From Burkholderiales bacterium (GTDB lineage Bacteria; Pseudomonadota; Gammaproteobacteria; Burkholderiales; Casimicrobiaceae): 37,313 bases of DNA. Each line of letters begins with the position of its first letter. The first letter of the stretch is position 1. Position numbers and translations under genes: made by a program. The notes beneath the pieces were generated by a model that was not told the origin of the DNA, made no database searches, and worked only from the letters and a program-made list of their open reading frames with translations. This document shows positions 13,498 to 28,155 of the stretch, piece by piece. The stretch spans positions 1 through 37,313 of the forward strand of contig JAICUU010000008.1 of assembly GCA_025935675.1 (NCBI GenBank), read 5' to 3'.

Positions 13498-14073
13498 TCA
13501 GCGCTTGTCGTCGTCGTCGGGTGCGTTTTGAGGCGGTGCCGCGAAGTTCGGGAACGGGAATGACGTGAACATGCCGCGCGTCTGGTCCTGCATCCGCTGC
13601 TGCATGTCCATGAAGAGCCGCGCGCTCTGCTCGAGGTAGTTGCCGAGCATCCCCTGCATCGCCGGCGCCTGCATCTGCATGAACTGCTTCCACAGGTCGG
13701 GCGTCAGCATCATCTTGTCGCCGTATACCTGCCGCGCCTGGTCCTGCAGCTTCTTCTGGATCGCGAGGAACGCCTTGACGTTCTGCTCCATGTACTGGCC
13801 CATGATCGTCTGCTGCGCGCTGCCGTAGAAGCGGATCATCTGCGCGAGCATTTCCGAGCTCCACATCGGCACGCCGCCCGATTCCTCGTCGAGGATGATC
13901 TGCAGCAGGATGCTGCGCGTCAGGTCGTCGCCGCTCTTGGCGTCGACCACCTGGAACTCGACGTTGTCGAGGACCATCTGCTTCACGTCGACGAGCGTGA
14001 TGTAGCCGCTGTTGGCCGTGTCGTAGAGGCGCCGGTTGGGGTACTTCTTGATGATGCGGGGGGAAGCGCTCAT
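13498..14073 (-). CDS. phaR: Polyhydroxyalkanoate synthesis repressor PhaR
   Basis: 191 aa. Residues ~6-66 are the PHB/PHA accumulation regulator DNA-binding domain (RIIKKYPNRRLYDTANSGYITLVDVKQM is its diagnostic start). The remainder is two PHB_acc regions rich in Met/Gln (MIRFYGSAQQTIMGQYMEQN; MQAPAMQGMLGNYLEQSARLFMDMQQRM), thought to bind PHB granules. The family represses phasin genes until PHB appears and titrates it off DNA. It lies divergent from phaP across a 315-nt region that contains TGC-type palindromes, consistent with direct control of phaP and perhaps itself. Confidence 0.96.
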   Translation of the reverse strand: MSASPRIIKKYPNRRLYDTANSGYITLVDVKQMVLDNVEFQVVDAKSGDDLTRSILLQIILDEESGGVPMWSSEMLAQMIRFYGSAQQTIMGQYMEQNVKAFLAIQKKLQDQARQVYGDKMMLTPDLWKQFMQMQAPAMQGMLGNYLEQSARLFMDMQQRMQDQTRGMFTSFPFPNFAAPPQNAPDDDDKR

Positions 14074-14105: not shown

Positions 14106-14161
14106 ACCCCCTGATTTATCGGCCGTTTGGACGCCCTTCCCGGCCTCGCAGGGGCCGGATG

Positions 14162-14172
14162 CTGCAGTGCAG
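14162..14172. promoter_or_regulatory. CTGC-AGT-GCAG palindrome, candidate PhaR operator
   Basis: CTGCAGTGCAG is a perfect palindrome apart from its central base, 10 nt upstream of the phaP -35. As I recall, PhaR proteins recognise TGC-containing palindromes of the type CTGC-N3/4-GCAG; this one fits exactly. The 8-mer TGCAGTGC within it recurs upstream of phaC (minus strand, around 17880). Confidence 0.55.
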
Positions 14173-14182
14173 TAAAAAACCC

Positions 14183-14214: not shown

Positions 14215-14230
14215 TTTGTGCGGTGCAGCA
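14215..14230. promoter_or_regulatory. TTTGTGC-N2-TGC element at the phaP transcription start
   Basis: TTTGTGCGGTGCAGC starts 3 nt after the -10 hexamer and contains TGC-GGT-GCA. The same TTTGTGC-N2-TGC pattern occurs at the same offset from the -10 of the candidate sRNA at 15165. Inferred repressor (PhaR) site. Confidence 0.45.
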
Positions 14231-14388
14231 TCCGGTGTAAAGCCAGGGCGCCGCGGACGGCCTCGTCGGGACGTAAAGACCGCGCCGTCACAGGATACGC
14301 GAGCGCCGCCGGTGCCTCGTCCCCAGCGGGGATATCCGGCAACGTTCACGGTAACGGTTCCATGACTGAGACCACGAAAGGAAGCACC
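14218..14388 (+). other. Structured 5' leader of phaP
   Basis: Together with the promoter region this accounts for the 315-nt gap 14074-14388. The predicted leader is ~170 nt and can fold into two hairpins: GACGGC (14256) with GCCGTC (14284), and a nested one, GCCGG (14308)...CCCC-agc-GGGG...CCGGC (to 14340). No recognised riboswitch. An in-frame ATG at 14362 lacks a good SD. Confidence 0.4.
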
Positions 14389-14922
14389 ATGTACGCAACC
14401 GAACAATTCGCCGAGCTCAACAAGGTCGGCGTCGCCAACGCCACCCGCTTTGCCGCGCTCTCGATCGAGAACGCCGAGAAGCTCTTCCGGCTCAACGTCA
14501 CCGCCGCCAAGGCCGCGTTCGCGCACGGCGTCGAGAACGCGCAGGCCGTCGCGGGCGTCCGCGACGTCCAGGAGCTCTTCGCGCTTCGCGCCAAGGTCGC
14601 CGAAGAGAACGTCCAGGCCGCCGTCGGCTACGGCCGCACGCTCTATGCGCTCGCCTCGGAAGCCCAAGGCGAGTACACGGCAATCGCCGAAGACGCGTGG
14701 AACACGTACTCGAAGGGCGTCTCCGCGATCGTCGACAAGGCCGCCAAGAGCGCGCCGGCGGGCTCGGATGCCGCCGTCAACGCGTTCCGGTCGACCTTTG
14801 CCGCCTCGACCGCCGCGTTCGACCAGTTCCAGCGCGCAACCAAGCAGGTCGTGAGCCTGGCCGATGCGAGCGTCCGCGCCGCCGCGGCGTCGACCGCGAA
14901 GCCGGCCAAGGGCCGCAAGTAA
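14389..14922 (+). CDS. phaP: Phasin family protein (PHB granule surface protein)
   Basis: 177 aa. I chose ATG 14389 (MYATEQFAELNKVGV) because AAAGGAAG lies just upstream; the in-frame ATG at 14362 (MTETTKGST) would add 9 residues with no SD. Typical Phasin_2 sequence: helical, Ala/Val-rich, no Cys, with FAALSIENAEKLFRLN and VQAAVGYGRTLYALASEAQGEY, and a basic Ala/Lys tail (AAASTAKPAKGRK). Phasins coat PHB granules and control their number and size. Strong promoter, leader and terminator flank it, so it is monocistronic. Confidence 0.95.
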   Translation: MYATEQFAELNKVGVANATRFAALSIENAEKLFRLNVTAAKAAFAHGVENAQAVAGVRDVQELFALRAKVAEENVQAAVGYGRTLYALASEAQGEYTAIAEDAWNTYSKGVSAIVDKAAKSAPAGSDAAVNAFRSTFAASTAAFDQFQRATKQVVSLADASVRAAAASTAKPAKGRK

Positions 14923-15036
14923 TACCGCACCCACCAGGGAACTCGCGGTTCCGGCCGCGGGTCCACCTGATGTGGGTTGGATGACGAAAGCGTGAAGCGC
15001 GACCGGTCATAGCGATTGCGCGAAGTCGATCGACAG
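14923..15036 (+). other. phaP 3' untranslated region
   Basis: First part of the 356-nt gap between phaP and phaB. It has two small inverted repeats (GGAAC-N5-GTTCC at 14938; CCAC-N5-GTGG at 14963) and leads into the perfect terminator at 15037. No ORF of note. Confidence 0.4.
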
Positions 15037-15068
15037 GCCCCGCCTCCCAATGGAGGCGGGGCTTTTTT
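15037..15068 (+). terminator. Intrinsic terminator of phaP
   Basis: A perfect 11-bp stem GCCCCGCCTCC / GGAGGCGGGGC with a 4-nt loop (CAAT), followed directly by TTTTTT on the plus strand. Textbook Rho-independent terminator, 115 nt after the phaP stop. Confidence 0.93.
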
Positions 15069-15092
15069 CATCCGGGAGAGCCACGCCGACCG

Positions 15093-15111
15093 TGCACGAT
15101 TGTGCATGGCA
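15093..15111. promoter_or_regulatory. TGCAC-GATT-GTGCA inverted repeat upstream of the sRNA
   Basis: Perfect 5-bp arms, about 40 nt upstream of the candidate sRNA -35. It overlaps TTGTGCATGGCAATA, which matches a site upstream of the FabG-like gene (TTGTGCATCGCAATA, minus strand, 25219-25233) at 14 of 15 positions. Candidate site for the same TGC-recognising regulator, inferred to be PhaR. Confidence 0.4.
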
Positions 15112-15133
15112 ATAAATTTTTACGCCTTTATAT

Positions 15134-15161
15134 TTAACTCTCTCGGCAGCGGTGGTAAAGT
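15134..15161 (+). promoter_or_regulatory. Candidate extended -10 promoter of the sRNA
   Basis: TTAACT - 16 bp - TAAAGT, with TGG directly before the -10 (extended -10). It sits in an AT-rich island (AATAAATTTTTACG, TTTATATTTAAC) that is striking in this GC-rich genome. Predicted +1 is ~15168, just before the first stem of the RNA. Confidence 0.5.
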
Positions 15162-15167
15162 GGATTT

Positions 15168-15278
15168 GTGCACTGCCGCATGTCCCTCCCGGGACCTCCG
15201 CGGCAGGTGCCCTGTATTCCTCTCCTCCTCCTGACGGAATGCAGACTTCGAGCCCCGCCGTCACCGGCGGGGCTTTTT

Positions 15279-15280
<2 letters not shown>
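15168..15280 (+). ncRNA. Candidate small RNA (~113 nt) with anti-Shine-Dalgarno loop
   Basis: Bracketed by the phaP terminator and its own. Three stem-loops follow the predicted start. SL1: GCACTGCCGC (15170) pairs with GCGGCA-G-GTGC (15200-15210), enclosing an inner GTCCC-tccc-GGGAC hairpin and an unpaired CCTCC. SL2: CTGTATTCC (15212) pairs with GGAATGCAG (15236), 9 bp including one U-G, around a 15-nt loop TCTCCTCCTCCTGAC that is complementary to AGGAGG-type ribosome-binding sites. SL3: the terminator at 15251. There is no credible ORF. C-rich anti-SD loops are known in regulatory and toxic sRNAs of betaproteobacteria and neisseriae. It is convergent with phaB, whose stop codon overlaps the T-tract, and the loop can pair with the phaB SD. 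Family membership is not established here. Confidence 0.7.
15251..15280 (+). terminator. Intrinsic terminator of the sRNA
   Basis: AGCCCCGCCG-tcac-CGGCGGGGCT is a perfect 10-bp stem followed by TTTTTT on the plus strand. On the minus strand no T-tract follows, so it is not oriented for phaB. phaB (minus) stops at 15279-15281, inside the T-tract. Confidence 0.9.
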
Positions 15281-16028
<748 letters not shown>

Positions 16029-24401: not shown

Positions 24402-25142
24402 CTAGATCGTGACGCCGCCCGAGACTTCGATGACCGCGCCGTTGATGTAGGACGCCTCGTCCGACGCGAGCCACGCGTAGGTGTTGGCGATTTCCTCGGG
24501 ACGGCCGAGGCGACCCATCGGCACCTTGTCGCGGATCAGGTTCAGCACCTTTTCCGGCATCGACGCGAGGATCGGCGTCTCGATGAAGCCAGGGCAGATC
24601 GCGTTGGCGCGAATGCCCTTGCCGCCGAGCTCGCGCGCCCAGGTCTTGACCATGCCGATCACGCCGAACTTGGTCGCCGCGTAGTTGGTCTGGCCGAAGT
24701 TGCCGTACAGGCCGACGATCGACGACGCGTTGAGGATGCAGCCCGAGTTCTGCGCGAGCATGATGTCGACGACCGCCTTCGTGCAGTTGTAGACACCTTT
24801 CAGGTTGACGTCGATGACGCGCTCGAACTGCTCGTCGGTCATCTTGGCCAGGCGCGCGTCCTGGACGATGCCGGCGTTGTTGACCAGCGTGTCGATGCGG
24901 CCCCACGCCGCCATCACCGCCTCGACCATCCGCGCGATGCTCCCCTTGTCGGTGACGTCGACCTCGAAGGCCAGCGCTTCGCCCCCGGCCGCGCGAATCG
25001 CGTCGGCGGTCTCCTGCGCGGGGGCGAGGTTGATGTCGCAGACGGCGACGCGCGAGCCTTCGTGCGCGAACTTGACCGAGGTCGCGCGGCCGATGCCCTG
25101 GCCGCCGCCGGTGATGATGGAAACCTTGTCCTGCAGTCGCAT
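24402..25142 (-). CDS. SDR-family 3-oxoacyl reductase (FabG/PhaB-like)
   Basis: 246 aa from ATG 25142, with CGGAG upstream. Classical short-chain dehydrogenase: TGGGQGIGRA nucleotide-binding motif, acidic D36 after the second strand (AVCDINLA; suggests NAD preference or mixed use), NNAGI, catalytic NASSIVGLYGNFGQTNYAATK with Y154/K158, and C-terminal INGAVIEVSGGVTI. FabG-like with strong likeness to PHB reductases (NFGQTNYAATK). It could reduce acetoacetyl-CoA or 3-oxoacyl-ACP. An upstream element matches one near the pha sRNA, hinting at a PHB link. Stand-alone gene. Confidence 0.9.
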   Translation of the reverse strand: MRLQDKVSIITGGGQGIGRATSVKFAHEGSRVAVCDINLAPAQETADAIRAAGGEALAFEVDVTDKGSIARMVEAVMAAWGRIDTLVNNAGIVQDARLAKMTDEQFERVIDVNLKGVYNCTKAVVDIMLAQNSGCILNASSIVGLYGNFGQTNYAATKFGVIGMVKTWARELGGKGIRANAICPGFIETPILASMPEKVLNLIRDKVPMGRLGRPEEIANTYAWLASDEASYINGAVIEVSGGVTI

Positions 25143-25204
25143 GAGGCGAATCTCCGGGCGGGCCGGCCTGTCCATCGGGGGAACGGACCGCCAAATCCCC
25201 GCGC

Positions 25205-25233
25205 ACTCTAGCCCGAAATATTGCGATGCACAA
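25205..25233 (-). promoter_or_regulatory. Candidate promoter of the FabG-like gene with overlapping TTGTGC-N3-GC element
   Basis: On the minus strand TTGTGC - 17 bp - TAGAGT, about 60 nt upstream of ATG 25142. The -35 is part of TTGTGCATCGCAATA, nearly identical to TTGTGCATGGCAATA at 15101-15115. A repressor bound here would block the -35. Confidence 0.4.
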
Positions 25234-25403
25234 GCCGCGCCAGGACGAGGTCAAAATGCCAAGTCGGGCGGTTGAATCCTAAATATTTCAATTGTTTCAA
25301 AGATTTATATACGTGAGGTCGATGCGGGTCGGCGGCCTCTGGACGATGTACATTGCGCGGATGTTGCGCCCGCGAGACGCGCTTGCGCTCGCCGTGGGCA
25401 GGG

Positions 25404-27143: not shown

Positions 27144-28155
27144 CGATCGCCAAGCGCGCGGCGCGCCAGCGCGCGGCGATGCGCCGCCAGCCGCGCGGAC
27201 GCGACGCCGTATAGACGTGCGCATCGCGTCCATCGGCGATGAGCGTGAGGCGGCTCGCGCGACCGTCGAGCAGCGCATCGACGGCGGGCGCGAGCCACTG
27301 CGCGTCGATCGACGTGAATGTCGATGCGACGACCTCGGGCAGCGCGACGACGAGGTGCGGCGCGCCGGCGGCGGCGATCGCCGTGGCGAGCGATGCATCA
27401 CTCGCGCCGACGTCGCGCGTCGATCCCTGCGTCGCGAGTGCGAGCCCGCGCGCCAGGTCGCCGGCGGCGCCAGCCGCGGTCAGCGCGTCGACATCGAGCG
27501 GTGCGTGCGCCGAGGCCGACGCCGCGGTGTTCCACAGCCACAGGCCGTTGCAAGGCGCGAGCCCGCGCGCTTCGCGCGCGTCGTTCTCCGGTGCGGCAAA
27601 GAGGAGCATCTGGATCTCGTTGGCAACGCGTGCGAAGCGACGCGCGTCGTCGCCATCGACGCGCAGCGCGCCAAGCGTTCGCCCGACCGCCGCGCCGGTC
27701 GGCGGTGCCGCGAGTCGCGCCGGCGTCGCGAGCCGCAGGTACCAGCGCGCCGGATGCGCCGCGACGAAGGCGAGGCCATCGCTTGCGAAATGCGCCGACA
27801 GCCGCGCGGCGAGCGACGACGACTCATCGCTCGACAGGTCGTCGACGCGCGACGCGACGAGCACGTCGTCGATGCCGGCGACGAGCGTCACCGGATCGGC
27901 GACGAGCCAGTCGCGCGCCGCGGGATCGAGGCCGGCGCCGTGCGCCATCAGCGTGGCGGCCGGCGTCGCGATGCCGACCGCATCGACCAGCGCATGCTCG
28001 AGCCCGGCGTCGTCGCGGTGGTGCTGCGCGAGGGCGGCAAGGCGCGCGAGCCCGCGCGAGCCCGCGAGCACGTCGGCGGGGAGCGCGGCGAGGCCCGGCG
28101 CGGCGACGACGAGATGTGTCGCACGCGACGCGCGGCGATTCGTGGCGGCGTCCAT
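27136..28155 (-). CDS. RpfE-like protein encoded upstream of recJ
   Basis: 339 aa. Diagnostic block NEIQMLLFAAPENDAREARGLAPCNGLWLWNTA matches my recollection of the RpfE-type regulatory protein family (often auto-named phosphoglycerate mutase) that sits next to recJ in Xanthomonas and betaproteobacteria. Other regions are Ala-rich, with WYLRLATPA and LTLIADGRDAHVYTASRPRGWRR. No signal peptide, TM or known catalytic motif. Its 3' end overlaps recJ. Biochemical function is unknown; I would not call it a mutase from this sequence. Confidence 0.8.
   Translation of the reverse strand: MDAATNRRASRATHLVVAAPGLAALPADVLAGSRGLARLAALAQHHRDDAGLEHALVDAVGIATPAATLMAHGAGLDPAARDWLVADPVTLVAGIDDVLVASRVDDLSSDESSSLAARLSAHFASDGLAFVAAHPARWYLRLATPARLAAPPTGAAVGRTLGALRVDGDDARRFARVANEIQMLLFAAPENDAREARGLAPCNGLWLWNTAASASAHAPLDVDALTAAGAAGDLARGLALATQGSTRDVGASDASLATAIAAAGAPHLVVALPEVVASTFTSIDAQWLAPAVDALLDGRASRLTLIADGRDAHVYTASRPRGWRRIAARWRAARLAIDG

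Follow-up and report, generated by a model that had tools for sequence, protein, structure and literature searches.

The window, i.e. the entire 37,313-nt stretch of DNA analyzed here, holds a PHB locus. We found phaR, encoding the PHB-responsive repressor, on the minus strand (13498..14073; TIGR01848 equivalog, 162 bits; PF07879, PF05233); phaP, encoding a phasin, on the plus strand (14266..14922; PF09361, E 5.6e-22; TIGR01841) with a likely start at 14389; and phaB, encoding acetoacetyl-CoA reductase, on the minus strand (15279..16028; TIGR01829 above cut-off). Profile matches place phaC upstream of phaB. The interval between phaP and phaB had been described, in an earlier note on this DNA, as two same-strand terminators with no ORF between them. 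Both terminators are there on the plus strand, the phaP terminator (terminator 1) spanning 15035-15064 and the later one (terminator 2) 15250-15275, and the scan around the predicted sRNA gave 3 terminator-like sites in 501 bp vs 0.6 expected. The absence of an ORF held in substance: a GTG frame of 250 aa, antisense to phaB, opens at 15168, but the frame is not conserved, as the sRNA of the nearest relative, G006, shows two gaps, one of 20 nt and one of 1 nt; the small-ORF reading was rejected on this ground.

Terminator 2 ends a predicted sRNA of about 113 nt (15168..15282, plus strand) that is convergent with phaB, and its U-tail shares nucleotides with the stop codon of phaB (15279-15281, minus strand). 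The terminator scan found no minus-strand terminator after phaB at 14900-15400, so phaB mRNA may read antisense across the predicted sRNA. Antisense action of such read-through RNA was considered and set aside, as the phaB overlap is lost in most relatives.

The predicted sRNA has three parts. SL1 (15168..15210, plus strand), known from folding and comparison with relatives, is a compound stem at the 5' end in which a CCTCC is partly unpaired, and it varies among relatives in sequence and length (20-nt gap in G006). SL2 (15212..15244, plus strand), defined by covariation, is a 9-bp hairpin (15212-15220/15236-15244) with 2 closing pairs that displays the anti-SD loop TCTCCTCCTCCTGAC at 15221-15235. 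The terminator, supported by both the scan and covariation, extends over 15250..15282. Folding of 15168-15282 gives a minimum free energy of -62.4 kcal/mol (z -8.15), and 0/200 shuffles were as low. Upstream, an extended -10, TGG-TAAAGT (15153..15161, plus strand), predicts a start at about 15168; it is preceded by an AT-rich stretch (about 15108-15139) and a poor -35, TTTAAC (15133-15138), and G006 has TGG-CATACT at the matching position. The AT-rich stretch, extended -10, SL1, SL2 and loop are thus all where the earlier note had placed them.

We found the same arrangement in the phaP 3' flanks of Burkholderiales MAGs (one Casimicrobiaceae), as a CTGTATC-NNN-CCTCCTCC-TGA-NNN-GATACAG hairpin and, after it, a terminator. 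An alignment of 23 units, with 18 pairs in hairpin and terminator and 500 shuffles as control, has two-sided compensatory changes in 12/18 pairs, and 0/500 shuffles reach this signal. Double-changed cells numbered 55 vs 15 in shuffled alignments, and the signal was lost once the pairing partners were slid. For helix 1 (SL2), 7/9 pairs have two-sided changes and 95.7% of cells are paired, with TCCTCC within the loop invariant throughout the 23 units. Of the stem covariation that the earlier note had named as a check, the part for SL2 and the terminator is present.

To define the distribution of the element, we used a covariance model (R1) built from the 23-unit alignment and counted matches above 57 bits as strong. 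The window RNA scores 72.6 bits (15203-15282), and strong matches occur in 29 genomes of the window's family, including 20/22 genomes of the same genus; 11 of the 29 made no contribution to the model. The strong loci lie directly 3' of phaP on the same strand in 27/29 cases, and the remaining two sit at the ends of contigs. Relatives have 33-162 nt between phaP and the RNA, and the window has 284 nt. Shorter, weaker versions lie between phaP and phaB in other families (G192, G153, G143, G079), and some genomes have tandem pairs of units. Comparison thus shows that the predicted anti-SD hairpin and terminator form an RNA element that is conserved, covaries and keeps a fixed place beside phaP.

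R1 also matches the phaP terminator weakly (15003..15071, plus strand; 19.8 bits, E 0.002), which may possibly be a degenerate first copy of the RNA without the anti-SD loop. The anti-SD hairpin unit also occurs outside the phaP neighborhood, at L157 (G025), L158 (G027), L161 (G014) and L160 (G015), and some of these copies have PhaR-like sites. Separately, phasin 3' flanks in other families (L108, L113, L115, L117, L119) carry a recurrent GTTGTCTCCT-hairpin-terminator element. GTTGTCTCCTT is the complement of AAGGAGACAAC, which appears as an RBS in L119, and this element may represent a further anti-SD RNA at the 3' ends of phasin genes.

PhaR-operator-like sites were scored with a matrix trained on the phaP promoters of 16 relatives, the window being left out. 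This matrix was used because the published degenerate S. meliloti PhaR consensus, tried as a search motif, was too unspecific on the GC-rich window (a match of at least 19/21 is reached at 34 of about 74,600 positions). Among the five best matrix sites in 37 kb, all on the plus strand, two are in the phaP promoter (14215..14232, 22.9 bits; 14159-14176, 15.5 bits) and two are around the sRNA promoter: ATTGTGCATGGCAATAAA upstream of it (15099..15116, 13.0 bits, fourth best) and TTTGTGCACTGCCGCATG over the predicted start (15165..15182, 11.0 bits, fifth best). Shuffled windows had 0.07 sites at >=13 bits and 0.2 sites at >=11 bits. The two sRNA sites are well below the 22.9-bit phaP operator. In G006 both sites recur, likewise 66 nt apart, at 21.4 and 14.7 bits, and the 21.4-bit one is almost identical to the operator of phaP. 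The third best site of the window (27583-27600, 13.7 bits) is apparently within a coding region and is probably due to chance.

The matrix site agrees in its TGC/GCA core with the footprinted motif of PhbF, a betaproteobacterial PhaR homologue (TG[N]TGC[N]3GCAA; PMC3206438), and it agrees as well with Sinorhizobium PhaR sites, including that of the mmgR sRNA gene (PMC12542648). RNA copies unlinked to phaP have an operator-like site in G025 (14.8 bits) and G027 (11.3 bits); in the same scan G014 had a weak site and no good one, and no convincing PhaR operator was found at the tandem second copies L031, L033, L034, L042 and L044. Elsewhere in the window, an operator-like CTTGTGCATCGCAATATT (25217-25234, minus strand), 19/21 to the Sinorhizobium consensus and weak in the phaP-trained matrix, lies 42 nt upstream of a FabG/acetoacetyl-CoA-reductase-like SDR gene (24402-25175, minus strand). 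With the sites at 15099 and 15165, the sRNA promoter has a feature of the PhaR regulon, and we infer that PhaR controls it. Together, the covariation, the phaP synteny at 27/29 loci and the operator-like promoter sites bear out the main proposal of the earlier note, an unannotated anti-SD-loop sRNA gene tied to the PHB locus, whose transcript is predicted.

We found no match in an Rfam search of the window at gathering cut-offs. The toxic betaproteobacterial sRNAs mentioned in the earlier note are RF02278, the nearest family known from betaproteobacteria, which is present in 187/300 genomes of the order (113 over cut-off). The likeness stood, and membership did not: the window RNA has the two-hairpin plan of RF02278 (an anti-SD hairpin with a CU-rich loop, then an intrinsic terminator) and reaches 26.7 bits vs a gathering cut-off of 50. 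Members of the RF02278 or double-hairpin group are ncS03, ncS05, ncS27 (bdhR1), ncS62 and Bordetella S17. The window RNA differs in its longer stem of another sequence, its extra SL1 and its fixed place beside phaP, whereas dispersed copies are the rule for RF02278, for which no phasin linkage was found in 30 loci. Overexpression of ncS27 attenuates growth (PMC5688073), and S17 is not strongly toxic in E. coli (PMC11722255); by analogy, the window RNA is possibly growth-inhibitory.

The operator idea arose on the first 30 RF02278 loci, and 40 copies fetched later were the check set (L048-L077 and L186-L225 overall). PhaR-like sites of >=8 bits lie within 120 nt upstream in 16/30 of the first copies (shuffled 3.2%) and 16/40 of the later copies (shuffled 2.6%), i.e. 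32/70 pooled vs about 3% in shuffles. At >=11 bits, the numbers are 12/30 and 10/40 (shuffled 0.5% and 1.1%). As a negative control, upstream regions of the sigma-32 type (described below) had PhaR-like sites in 0/27. Among genomes that were scanned for phasins as well, sites of >=5 bits precede RF02278 in 18/25 with a phasin vs 1/12 without (Fisher p 0.0003, kinship ignored). The 2017 study of double-hairpin RNAs left the regulator open; it described an upstream motif common to these RNAs and their greater abundance in medium with glucose (PMC5688073).

These results bear on whether the window RNA is simply an RF02278 RNA whose score has fallen under the Rfam cut-off through drift, which we consider a tenable but less than even prospect. 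Both RNAs share a C/U-rich 5' stretch, a CUCCUCC hairpin and a terminator, and PhaR-like operators are found upstream of the window RNA and of several RF02278 members. R1 rediscovers the RF02278 element in 29/30 RF02278 loci at E <= 0.01, and RF02278 is missing from the sampled members of the window's family bar a weak match in G024. However, RF02278 had no match at E <= 0.01 in 12 relatives, stem sequence and length differ, the linkage to phaP is absent from RF02278 copies, and the likeness in both directions must be read with caution, as a common C-rich loop and terminator supply much of such scores and could by themselves give them. The phaP-linked RNA is best regarded as a new variant among anti-SD hairpin RNAs, most likely one that branched off and diverged within the RF02278 group.

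Upstream of the relatives' units, we found a different promoter, CTTGAA-N14/15-CCCCANNT. Scored as CTTGAA-N13..16-CCCCATNT with a cut-off of >=11 of 13, this sigma-32-type pattern is present at 19/29 loci vs 0.07 expected in dinucleotide shuffles, a count inflated by kinship. We regard it as a heat-shock promoter type because the strict pattern also fronts dnaK, grpE, lon, htpG and hsp20 in these genomes and clpB in the window's own. The window promoter (score 6) and the closest relative, G006, lack it. RpoH would control the RNA in the relatives that carry this pattern.

Promoters of either type speak to the reading in which the RNA is the tail of the phaP mRNA, a 3'-UTR RNA active after processing for which a separate promoter is irrelevant. 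Most relatives lack a terminator between phaP and the element, which in G192, G153 and G079 begins 8-22 nt past the phaP stop, leaving scant room for a promoter, and RNase E releases Bordetella S17 from a longer precursor (PMC11722255). Yet the window has a strong terminator after phaP, then a promoter-like region with two operator-like sites, and most relatives have the sigma-32-type promoter between phaP and the element. We therefore judge a processed phaP tail to be improbable, if still worth weighing, relative to an RNA with its own promoter.

Among Rfam families, the best match to the window RNA is ar14/NfeR1 (RF02344), with 36.8 bits over three stems vs a cut-off of 58.8. Like the window RNA, the ar14/NfeR1 and cuckoo/CcsR RNAs of Alphaproteobacteria have hairpins displaying CCUCCUCC, and the RpoHI/RpoHII promoter of the CcsR operon (PMC10253847) resembles the sigma-32-type promoters of the phaP-linked RNA. 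However, ar14 has CCUCCUCCC in the unpaired regions of its three hairpins (PMC10746234), whereas the window RNA has the full motif only in SL2, a shorter CCUCC in SL1 and none in the terminator loop, i.e. one full anti-SD hairpin, and it lies beside phaP in another class rather than in a DUF1127/CIN1 context. Membership in ar14 fails on these defining features and is very unlikely.

MmgR (ar8, RF00519) of Sinorhizobium is an sRNA of PHB metabolism that is repressed by PhaR/AniA and carries a PhaR site close to where it starts (PMC12542648; PMC8401924). It shares with the window RNA the link to PHB and the PhaR-type site near the start, but is not beside phaP, and the match is 25.4 bits vs a cut-off of 41 with the core CCUCCCU unmatched and gapped in the alignment. 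We filed the window RNA under none of RF02278, ar14 and mmgR, because all three cut-offs failed; the Rfam check proposed by the earlier note thus returned likeness to RF02278 and ar14/NfeR1 with every cut-off missed. Least credible of all is a mere tandem or back-up terminator that shields phaB from phaP transcription and is C-rich by chance: the genes are convergent and the terminator abuts the phaB stop, but the conservation contradicts it, since termination calls neither for a preceding hairpin whose pairs change in compensation beneath an invariant loop nor for operators or promoters of the sigma-32 type.

As to targets, the phaB SD of the window, GAGGAGGA, is complementary to the anti-SD loop (duplex -15.9 kcal/mol). 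Mean SD-loop pairing is -14.5 kcal/mol for phaB vs -7.5 kcal/mol for phaP (Mann-Whitney p 3e-5, with related species not independent). However, mexA in the window pairs with the loop at -15.1, and as strong SDs abound, pairing energy does not set phaB apart. These energies make phaB a plausible target, with phaP escaping. RBS occlusion by such loops has precedent since NfeR1 silences its targets at the RBS (PMC10746234) and S17 acts likewise (PMC11722255).

Taken as a whole, 15168-15282 is probably an sRNA gene of the PHB regulon that is repressed by PhaR and blocks SD sequences. The window RNA would be transcribed from its own sigma-70-type promoter under PhaR repression; as PHB granules form, PhaR would be drawn off the DNA and the RNA would be made along with phaP. 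Its C-rich loop would then pair with strong GGAGG SD sequences and keep translation from starting on a set of mRNAs, phaB plausibly among them, while phaP would be spared through its weak SD. For most relatives, with the RNA in the phaP 3' flank behind a sigma-32-type promoter, storage and heat stress would feed one translational brake.

A broader reading, which we hold with evenly divided confidence, is that PhaR governs anti-SD sRNAs across Burkholderiales, including RF02278, such that granules free PhaR and thereby set a brake on strong-SD mRNAs; the phaP-linked RNA would be the branch left in the pha locus, also heat-shock-controlled in most relatives. As of a 2021 review, PHB riboregulation in the model betaproteobacterium Cupriavidus was still undeciphered (PMC8401924). 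If the operators are real, they would link RF02278, a widespread RNA family, to a candidate regulator, PhaR, and the phasin-neighbor RNA would tie carbon storage, heat stress and translation together.
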